From Parcubacteria group bacterium (lineage in GTDB: Bacteria > Patescibacteriota > JACQLU01), in the NCBI GenBank assembly GCA_016203935.1, contig JACQLU010000066.1:1-35337 (forward strand): a stretch of 35,337 bases of DNA. Direction: 5' to 3'. The notes below the pieces were generated by a model. The model saw nothing but the letters and a program-made list of their open reading frames with translations. It ran no database searches and was not told where the DNA came from. The position numbers were made by a program, and so were the translations under genes. How positions within the stretch are numbered: the first letter of the stretch is position 1; every line of letters starts with the position of its first letter. Shown piece by piece: positions 12,604 through 15,360 of the stretch.

Positions 12604-15360
12604 TCACTCTTTCAATTGTTCAGCCTGGCGATGTAACTCCGTGAGTGTTGCCTCGGCGGTTTTTTGTTTTTCCTCTGCTTCTGTCACCACTTCGCGCGGC
12701 GCCCTCGTGCGAAATTCGCCGGCAAGTTGCCGTTGGTAACGATCGACGAGCGCCTTTTGGATTTCGATCTCGTGAGCAATACGAGCTCGTTCTTTCACCA
12801 CGTCAATTGCCGGCGCGATTTCGATGCCGATGGTAACTGAAACGATTCTCGCTACTATGCTCCCCCTAAGGGGCGCGCCGTGATGTATCTCTGCGTGGGT
12901 GAGGTGCCCAATGAGTGGCGCAAAGTCGTTTAGAAATTTGGCATGACGAGGAGAGGTAAGAGTTACGGGAATCGCCTTGGCGGGATCGATCCTATAGGTT
13001 GCGCGTAGGATACGAATCGATGTGACAATCGCCTTAAGGAGCTTGATCCCGTGGGTAACCTGGGTGTCGCGTTTCGCTCGCCCCGCCGGACGGGGCCAGT
13101 CACTGATGATAAGCATTCCCGCTTCCGGATACAACTCCTTCCAGAGAACTTCCGTCACAAAGGGAATAAAAGGGTGACACAGTTTCAGGAGTGTCCTAAA
13201 GACACTGTATAACACCTCCTCCGAACCCCGAGCTGCGAGCTCCGAGCTCTTCATTTGGTATTTTGCAATTTCGACGTACCAATCGGCCAAGGTGTGCCAT
13301 GTAAACTCATAGAGACGGTCGCCGGCAGTCCCAAAACGAAACGCCTCGATGTCGGCTGTCGTCTTGGCAACGAGTTCATTGGTCTCATCCAAAATCCATT
13401 GATCGGCAAGCGACAAGTTCTTTCGCTCGGAGTTGGGAGTTCGGTGCTCGACGCCATGCCGTTTAAACCCCGAACCCCGAGCTGCGAGCTCCGAGCTCTT
13501 AATAAAACGCCCTACATTCCAAAGCTTATTCACAAAATTGCGATACCCTTCGATCTTCTCGGGGTAGAGACGGCTATCACTGCCGGCCGCCATACCTAGG
13601 ACCAGCGATAGGCGGACGGCATCCGCGCCATAGTCACGGATCATGTCGAGCGGGTCAATGCCGTTTCCTAGCGACTTACTCATTTTGCGGCCTTCTTTGT
13701 CGCGCACGAGTCCATGGAGATAGACCGTTTCGAAAGGAATATCGGATAGCGCGTACGTCGTCATAAGAATCATGCGCGCCACCCAGAAGAAGAGAATGTC
13801 GTACGCGGTCTCTAAGACCGAGGTAGGATGAAATTCTACGAGATCGCGAGTCTTCTCTGGCCACCCGAGCGTGGCAAAGGTCCAGAGCGCGGAGGAGAAC
13901 CATGTATCAAGGGTATCAGGATCCTGAATCAAGTTAGTGTCACCGCACGTGGGACATGTGGTGGGCGCGTGGACAGCAACTATAGGTTGATATTCTAAAC
14001 CAACCTCTTTCCCTCTCCCATGCGTACATGTGAGGCAGTACCATGCGGGAATACGATGTCCAAACCAAATCTGCCGCGAAATGGTCCAATCGTGGAGGTT
14101 CTTCATCCAATGGAAATAAACCTTCTCAAACCGCTTGGGAAGAATCGTAATTGTGCCGTCCTTGACGACCTCCGTTGCAATCTCTTTTAAAGTCTTGCCG
14201 GCGGTTTTCAAAAGTCCTCTCCGAGCTCCGGTCACCGAACCCCGAGCCCGGCCGCCTAAGGCGACCGGCCGATCCACGGCAATAAACCACTGCCGCGAGA
14301 CGAGTGGTTCAATCGGAGTGCCGCAGCGATAGCAGACCGAGAGATTATGGATGTACTGATCGTCCACTCGCTCCAAAAGCCCTCTCTCTTTCAGACGCGC
14401 CACGATTTCATCGCGACTTCCCCGCGCGTCTTTGCCTGCAAATTCGCCGGCAGCTTCGGTGAACTTCCCTTCTTCGTTGATTATTTGAATAACCGGGAGG
14501 TGGTGTCTTTGCGCGAGGGCAAAGTCTTCAAAGCTATGAGCGGGCGTCATCGTCATGGCACCGGTGCCGAACTCCCTATCAATGCTCGCGTCGGCGATCA
14601 CATTGGCATGGACCTTATCGCTAATCCAATCAATGTCAAACTCTTTTCCCACAAGGTCGCGATACCTTGGATCTTTGGGATGCACCACAATCGTCTTATC
14701 TAAAAACTTGGTCTCGGGTCTGGCAGTTCCGATCACCACCGGCCCATAGCGAAGATAGTAAAATGGCGCCTTCTCTTCTTTGTACTCCACCTCATCATCC
14801 GAGAGGGTGGAGTGGCATCGTGGGCACCAATTGACGATACGATCGCCACGGTAAATAAGACCATCTTGGTACATCGCCACAAAAATGGTACGGACCGCTT
14901 CGGTAATGCCAGGGTCAAGGGTAAAGCGCTCGCGTGACCAATCGGCCGACGAGCCCATTTTGCGTACTTGCGAACGAATGGTCGCCTTGGATGATTCAAC
15001 GAACGCTTCGACACGCTTTAAAAACTCCTCCCGCCCGAGATCGTGACGGGTCTTCTTCTCGGCCTTATAGAGATCCTTTTCTACTTTGTTCTGTGTCGCA
15101 ATGGCAGCGTGGTCAGTGCCGGGAAGCCAGAGCGCGCGCTCGCCTTTCATCCGATGATAGCGAATCATGAGATCCTGAAGTGCAAGCCCCATCGCGTGAC
15201 CGATATGGAGGGTACCGGTGGCATTAGCCGGCGGCATGGCAATGCTGAAAGACTTCGTCCCCTTGATTTGTTTCACAGTCTCTGGACGAAAATAGCCACC
15301 TTGCTCCCAAGCATTATAGACCGCATCTTCGAACTCTCGAGGGTTGTAGATTTTGTACAT
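12604..15360 (-). CDS. valS: Valyl-tRNA synthetase (start re-assigned to MYKIYNPREFEDAVY at 15360)
   Basis: HIGHAMGLALQD, PGTDHAAIATQ, CYRCGTPIEPLVSRQWF, ISRQIWFGHRIPAWY, KMSKSLGNGIDP. ORF upstream of 15360 is translated repeat sequence (15370-15499). Confidence 0.96.
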   Translation of the reverse strand: MYKIYNPREFEDAVYNAWEQGGYFRPETVKQIKGTKSFSIAMPPANATGTLHIGHAMGLALQDLMIRYHRMKGERALWLPGTDHAAIATQNKVEKDLYKAEKKTRHDLGREEFLKRVEAFVESSKATIRSQVRKMGSSADWSRERFTLDPGITEAVRTIFVAMYQDGLIYRGDRIVNWCPRCHSTLSDDEVEYKEEKAPFYYLRYGPVVIGTARPETKFLDKTIVVHPKDPRYRDLVGKEFDIDWISDKVHANVIADASIDREFGTGAMTMTPAHSFEDFALAQRHHLPVIQIINEEGKFTEAAGEFAGKDARGSRDEIVARLKERGLLERVDDQYIHNLSVCYRCGTPIEPLVSRQWFIAVDRPVALGGRARGSVTGARRGLLKTAGKTLKEIATEVVKDGTITILPKRFEKVYFHWMKNLHDWTISRQIWFGHRIPAWYCLTCTHGRGKEVGLEYQPIVAVHAPTTCPTCGDTNLIQDPDTLDTWFSSALWTFATLGWPEKTRDLVEFHPTSVLETAYDILFFWVARMILMTTYALSDIPFETVYLHGLVRDKEGRKMSKSLGNGIDPLDMIRDYGADAVRLSLVLGMAAGSDSRLYPEKIEGYRNFVNKLWNVGRFIKSSELAARGSGFKRHGVEHRTPNSERKNLSLADQWILDETNELVAKTTADIEAFRFGTAGDRLYEFTWHTLADWYVEIAKYQMKSSELAARGSEEVLYSVFRTLLKLCHPFIPFVTEVLWKELYPEAGMLIISDWPRPAGRAKRDTQVTHGIKLLKAIVTSIRILRATYRIDPAKAIPVTLTSPRHAKFLNDFAPLIGHLTHAEIHHGAPLRGSIVARIVSVTIGIEIAPAIDVVKERARIAHEIEIQKALVDRYQRQLAGEFRTRAPREVVTEAEEKQKTAEATLTELHRQAEQLKE
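13221..13251 (-). repeat. In-frame repeat in valS, copy 1 (31 bp; encodes KSSELAARGS)
   Basis: ccgaaccccgagctgcgagctccgagctctt, identical to 13470-13500; 249 bp apart (multiple of 3). Confidence 0.95.
13425..13500 (-). repeat. In-frame hairpin element in valS containing repeat copy 2 (13470-13500)
   Basis: Left arm gctcggagttgggagttcggtgctcg vs reverse complement of right arm gctcggagctcgcagctcggggttcg, about 20/26 identical. Encodes SSELAARGSGFKRHGVEHRTPNSER. Confidence 0.85.
14222..14271 (-). repeat. In-frame palindromic insertion in valS just after SRQWFIAVD
   Basis: Contains cggccgcctaaggcgaccggccg (14249-14271) and cgaaccccgagc shared with the other valS copies. Encodes RPVALGGRARGSVTGARRG. 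Confidence 0.85.

Follow-up and report, generated by a model that had tools for sequence, protein, structure and literature searches.

The genome of an uncultured dwarf bacterium (a Patescibacteria MAG of 1.0 Mb in 97 contigs, 87% complete) harbors a large set of repeats built from a degenerate heptanucleotide, GNTCRRR. The units form tandem arrays of about 3-10 that occur either singly or as inverted pairs forming hairpins. These arrays are embedded, mostly in frame, in considerably more than 12 conserved genes, among them seven genes for tRNA-charging enzymes and two for DNA polymerases. Other bacteria of the phylum share this trait, so that essential proteins seem to gain new segments from junk-like DNA. 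The analysis started from a stretch of 35,337 nucleotides of this genome, hereafter the window, in which valS and polA are the two host genes (Table 1).

Heptad arrays in valyl-tRNA synthetase

The product of valS, which also matches the Pfam families tRNA-synt_1 and Anticodon_1, contains four heptad arrays at three loops that have no counterpart in ValRS relatives. The initial annotation of the window pointed to an exact 31-bp duplicate within this gene, and the two copies of CCGAACCCCGAGCTGCGAGCTCCGAGCTCTT are indeed found at 13221-13251 and 13470-13500, spaced by 249 bp and both translated in one reading frame to KSSELAARGS. On the coding (minus) strand, the 31-mer is a row of heptads, GCTCGGA GCTCGCA GCTCGGG GTTCGGA. 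The genome-wide search that had been proposed for it tolerated 3 mismatches and yielded no match outside the two valS copies (0 for the reversed control). Because only valS contains the exact 31-mer, the pair is best read as putative copying within one gene. The second copy had been recognized as half of a longer hairpin, and it forms one arm of a stem at 13425-13499 with 26-nt arms that are 77% complementary (RNA fold, -36.4 kcal/mol; DNA fold, z about -2). The opposing, inverted row reads GCTCGGA GTTGGGA GTTCGGT GCTCGA. The third insertion, originally delimited as 14222-14271, turned out to be composite: heptads occupy 14219-14249, and the remainder is a separate GC palindrome, located mostly within a coding stretch that aligns to relatives (DRPVALGG).

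In an alignment of this ValRS with 31 other sequences, the inserted segments correspond mostly to gaps or short variable linkers, in agreement with their earlier assignment to linkers. Insert 1 is shorter or missing in relatives, and over 85% of the aligned ValRS show a gap in place of insert 3. The top named matches share 51-53% identity across a portion of the protein, and the genomes compared include no other member of the genus, family, order or class of this genome. All three insert sites are variable linkers in other bacteria as well, which, at the level of the alignment, marks these segments as apparent insertions or replacements at tolerant places. In the AlphaFold2 model of ValRS (mean pLDDT 86.7), inserts 2 and 3 are low-confidence loops (pLDDT below 50 at residues 634-649 and 374-386, respectively) and are predicted to be disordered, whereas insert 1 (residues ~709-719) extends a helix turn modeled with good confidence. 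The array in polA lies inside the C-terminal domain of the 5'-3' exonuclease (spanned by Pfam PF01367).

Table 1. Host genes, heptad arrays and an adjoining palindrome in the window
Feature	Position	Strand	Evidence
valS, valyl-tRNA synthetase	12604..15378	-	NCBIfam NF004349 valine--tRNA ligase, E 3.8e-293
Insert 1, four heptads in a single array (first copy of the 31-mer), KSSELAARGSE, residues ~709-719	13219..13250	-	repeat and profile scans
Insert 2, hairpin arm antisense to valS, codes VEHRTPNSER	13425..13451	+	scan, folding
Insert 2, hairpin arm in the sense orientation of valS (second copy of the 31-mer), codes KSSELAARGSGF	13466..13499	-	repeat scan, folding
Insert 3, four degenerate heptads, codes RARGSVTGARR, residues ~376-386	14219..14249	-	profile scan
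GC palindrome CCGGCCGCC-TAA-GGCGACCGG, not heptad-based, adjoins insert 3	14248..14271	.	sequence reading, fold
polA, DNA polymerase I, second host gene of the window	6046..8856	-	Pfam DNA_pol_A, E 1e-151
polA heptad array, AQGSGLKAQS	8155..8184	-	exact triple-heptad matches and scan

Three intergenic palindromes of the window differ in kind from the heptad arrays and, perhaps, represent another repeat family (5921-6045, 15413-15489 and 8874-8952); GATACTCATAGATATT...AATGAGTATC is present at two of these places and an ATTCGG-rich hairpin at the third. In a ValRS from Chloroflexota (L103), the linker that corresponds to insert 2 carries a tandem hairpin-forming repeat, LEVGAGSPRPEAGSPRPEAGSPRPEAPE, which hints at a cross-phylum hotspot. 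Elsewhere in the window, a tRNA-Glu gene (19257-19330) is preceded, 124 bp upstream, by a segment that matches its first 33 bases at 91% (19136-19168), that ARAGORN did not call and that is possibly a missed second tRNA or a partial copy.

Genome-wide abundance, hairpins and host genes

Both pattern searches and a profile scan revealed related repeats throughout the genome and within many other essential genes. An exact triple of GNTCRRR occurs 38 times in the 1.0 Mb assembly, compared with a single occurrence of the reversed pattern and about 0.015 occurrences calculated for 1.0 Mb at equal base frequencies; when up to 2 mismatches are allowed, the counts are 133 versus 28. The arrays are not due to chance. 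The wording of the initial annotation, palindromic repeats, is not supported: the repeating unit measures 7 bp and is not a 31-bp palindrome, and each element, rather than a discrete palindrome with a consensus of its own, is an array of such units, in many cases a single one. The profile scan, which covered 261 kb in regions around hits, gave 63 entries (~60 once overlaps are removed); first-order Markov sequence gave 0-2 entries and reversed sequence 22 at the lowest threshold, so that weak entries near the threshold call for caution. Period 7, with its multiples, is the sole frequent short period in these regions, which were picked for heptads, so that only the scarcity of other periods is informative. 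The arrays are about 16-80 nt long, and the hairpins span about 57-94 nt.

All 17 inverted pairs detected in the profile scan have one polarity, with the GNTCRRR arm first, and no pairs in the opposite order within 60 nt were found across the 261 kb. The stems span 27-36 positions, mostly with ~75% Watson-Crick pairs (one, on contig C86, has 8 of 28), the loops measure 3-40 nt, and the RNA folds range from -19 to -49 kcal/mol. By positions 5-6, the heptads fall into three classes, AA, AG and GG, and in 16 of the 17 pairs both arms are of one class. Inverted duplication of a single arm was considered as the origin of the hairpins and rejected, given that the similarity of an arm to its own partner ranks only 2nd to 9th of 17: the classes match, with no exact mirror. 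Contig C86 also carries a palindrome, CCCCGTCATCCGACGGGG, in two open frames, one sense and one antisense (L080, ~1400-1440 and 5530-5590).

Within the scanned regions, 34 arrays, more than half of the total, lie within 19 Pfam-supported genes, a few of these with weak Pfam matches, and ~13 arrays lie outside any frame of at least 100 aa. The interrupted genes include those for PolA, DnaE, UvrD, LeuS, IleS, AlaS, ArgS, PheS, PheT, TrmD, a Mur ligase and GrpE, and many arrays cut into conserved domains: Mur_ligase_M, UvrD-helicase, the catalytic domains of PheS and AlaS, the anticodon domains of LeuS and ArgS, and the 5'-3' exonuclease domain of PolA. TrmD accommodates two hairpin inserts of ~25-29 codons each, one after the VEPIFKAL helix and the other in the interdomain linker, both missing from TrmD relatives. 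Genes for tRNA synthetases account for 9 of 36 array sites (matches with at most 1 mismatch, clustered by hand) and seem to be over-represented relative to their share of the genome, an estimated 4-5%.

Reading frame, probable copying and proposed origin of the arrays

All 32 members of GNTCRRR are free of stops in every sense frame, and on the antisense strand they are open only with G at position 5; antisense arms of the GG class, accordingly, are stop-free. Such openness is not special to GNTCRRR: for either strand taken by itself, 69% of the possible heptad classes lack stops and, therefore, openness alone cannot account for the consensus. In arrays within Pfam-supported genes, the trinucleotide TCA (antisense TGA) is present in 45 of 77 sense heptads and in 12 of 33 out-of-phase antisense heptads, compared with 0 of 13 in-phase antisense ones, the latter because the host genes are open. 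Antisense arms thus avoid TGA in a frame-specific manner, and the arrays are fitted to their frame. In pgk (PGK), the hairpin is out of frame: the protein is encoded in one frame from its N-terminus to HLGRP and in another frame thereafter, which points either to a disrupted gene or to a mistake in the assembly.

When the arrays were compared with one another, the longest stretch of identity was the 31 nt within valS, which include a rare, private heptad, GCTCGCA. The next longest, 27 nt, is shared by leuS and ileS, on different contigs, and identities of 24-27 nt connect leuS, ileS, pheT and pgk. These shared stretches suggest copying within and between genes, although the simplest arrays, those of the AA class, could converge.

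The explanation that we consider the most plausible, and hold with moderate confidence, is that of a genome-wide (GNTCRRR)n family that is copied between sites, is selfish or neutral, and is filtered by the reading frame and by tolerance at the protein surface. The arrays would spread as short non-autonomous or recombinational copies, change in length through 7-nt slippage, and carry no host function of their own, with selection acting only as a filter that spares those copies that leave the proteins working. In essential genes, sense arrays could persist thanks to the absence of stops from GNTCRRR in all three frames, and antisense arms could do so either as the GG class or via frame-specific changes that remove TGA; the survivors would be those that sit at surface loops, domain linkers or helix turns. 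Of this scheme, we infer the copying between loci, the role of selection as a filter only, and the slippage. The original view of mobile or proliferating elements is upheld as far as spread in the genome is concerned; with respect to transposition, it is not, given that within this genome the heptad arrays revealed neither terminal signatures nor target-site duplications, and no transposase linked to them came to light. Four observations weigh against the copied and filtered family: a source copy was not found, nor were such signatures or duplications, the hairpin arms are only class-matched rather than mirror copies, the pgk hairpin is out of frame, and the excess in synthetase genes would not be expected from a blind process, unless these genes are unusually tolerant.

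The uniform polarity of the hairpins and the class-matched arms would also be compatible with transposable palindromes, that is, REP- or MITE-like hairpins moved by a Y1 or RAYT-type transposase, with single arrays as decayed halves, and the genome does encode one Y1_Tnp protein (C38:96-317). This gene, however, is flanked by another palindrome, GTGGGGACGGTCC; no conserved ends of the heptad arrays were seen, and arm and loop lengths vary, so that we regard transposition of this kind as unlikely. Mobilization by a RAYT was rejected because the only Y1 gene found adjoins that non-heptad palindrome. We would give the same low credence to independent local origin, whereby polymerase slippage would create arrays anew in each gene with no copying between genes. 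Many bacterial genomes contain an excess of heptamer repeats, which have been tied to polymerase slippage (PMC4692102), and the exact 31-mer is limited to a single gene, but one consensus recurs in dozens of unrelated genes, the inverted pairs and mixed-class arrays are not products of simple slippage, and the identities among leuS, ileS, pheT and pgk count against this scenario to the extent that they are not convergent.

A function of the hairpins in mRNA or of the peptides in the protein, for example, in regulating translation factors, is brought to mind by the sites in valS, leuS, ileS, alaS, argS, pheS, pheT and trmD, with the synthetase share noted above, and by the strength of the RNA folds. 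Nevertheless, such a function appears improbable: read as mRNA, the coding hairpins contain 36 G.U pairs versus 47 A.C mismatches, so that G.U is not favored over A.C and selection at the RNA level was discarded; the peptides vary with frame and strand, the hosts are diverse, and single arrays lack a hairpin altogether. Least credible of all, to the point of being very hard to entertain, is an artefact of assembly or binning. The fragmentation and incompleteness of the assembly, the frame broken at the pgk hairpin and the poor assembly of short repeats would be in its favor, but against it stand the many in-frame inserts, the frame-specific avoidance of stops, and the recurrence of the pattern in independent genomes, some of them 94-100% complete.

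Relatives and known repeat systems

Exact GNTCRRR triples are present in 43 of 380 Patescibacteria genomes, with the genome studied here at the top (38) and the next one containing 12. In the other genomes that we inspected, most arrays lie in long frames, usually in the sense orientation, and the Pfam-supported hosts comprise CarB, AroDE, IleS, PurH, a PurP-like protein, GlgA, ATP-dependent DNA ligase, ArgS, GAPDH, PriA, CCA-adding enzyme, RuvC and GlmS; an apparent array in a MurA-like frame of one genome (L175, GEIRVQGSKNA) has the look of a normal MurA segment and was set aside. Some positions recur. In IleS of this genome and of genome G206, the array directly precedes LAWTTTxWTLP, and two CCA-adding enzymes have an array in one shared loop, sense in one enzyme and antisense in the other. 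In TrmD of G050, both loops are occupied by hairpins based on a different heptad: (GATTTCA)n pairs with either (TGCAATC)n or (TACAATC)n, and these departures from TGAAATC eliminate one stop per unit. Among the 23 nearest named relatives by ValRS, there is one single heptad match in total and, therefore, the expansion is not common to them. It is conceivable, if rather doubtful, that frame-tolerant coding repeats, heptads open in all sense frames, are phylum-wide, spread by a dedicated copying process and form a continuing source of new loops for the core proteome, with the same loops revisited in TrmD, IleRS and CCA-adding enzyme. Coding palindromes of further kinds are found in these two TrmD loops in other Patescibacteria (L251, L258 and L259; TPNPSPNLGEG; RHSELVSES...LKQVQDD), suggestive of insertion hotspots.

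What the arrays have in common with REP/RAYT systems is that a genome contains numerous short repeats that form hairpins; REP elements, however, are intergenic with a fixed core, and the search for a heptad-linked Y1 gene in this genome was negative. As a separate observation, contig C38 (L214:570-620 and 1010-1050) shows a REP/RAYT-like layout in which a partial Y1 transposase gene is accompanied by the palindrome AGTGGGGACGGTCC...GGACCGTCCCCACT, present twice. The likeness to Rickettsia palindromic elements proposed in the initial annotation pertains to behavior and not to anatomy. The RPE, along with their Wolbachia counterparts (WPE), are hairpin repeats that lie in frame in conserved protein genes and also in intergenic regions, with solvent-exposed inserts and with different element families sharing one gene site (PMC2229807, PMC3767692). 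Heptad arrays, too, sit in frame in conserved genes and between genes, and the TrmD loops are a site where different repeat families meet. In contrast, RPE are palindromes of 105-146 bp with a family consensus along the whole length and terminal inverted repeats, whereas here, in a different phylum, we find 7-bp units, variable loops and many single arrays. The heptad arrays are not members of the Rickettsia palindromic elements.

Among heptamer repeats, the cyanobacterial STRR, GGGGATT of Nostoc, GGGAATC of Xanthomonas (for which inverted arrays are mentioned) and TAACTGA of Beggiatoaceae are described as mainly intergenic, with rare coding cases at protein ends (PMC4692102, PMC4679880). They resemble the present repeats in being tandem degenerate 7-mers in many short, dispersed arrays per genome, but here the heptad sequence is different, and it is the conserved domains of core enzymes that contain the arrays. 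The repeats of Borgs are perfect tandem ones that occur in reading frames, yield disordered regions, and are enriched in extracellular and membrane proteins of these extrachromosomal elements (PMC9879509); common to both are in-frame repeats producing disordered protein regions, whereas here the arrays are degenerate, form hairpins and reside in chromosomal housekeeping genes.

In earlier descriptions, coding palindromic repeats were peculiar to Rickettsia and Wolbachia, and heptamers were mainly intergenic; here, heptamers are present within highly conserved enzymes, in a small genome and many relatives. The spread of repeats without a visible transposase thereby becomes directly testable, as does the choice between passengers and raw material for new loops. 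Among the papers searched, none dealt with heptads or palindromes in Patescibacteria. There is also a warning for annotation: odd inserts in Patescibacteria proteins, such as AQSSKLK and SDLRPPT, stem from DNA repeats rather than from homology at the protein level. An insert of another nature was encountered in IleRS of two distant Patescibacteria, where a histidine-phosphatase domain, PF00300, is inserted behind the initial portion of the class I catalytic domain (C73, L078:6742-10350, E 5e-33; G206, L282:814-3000, E 2e-35).
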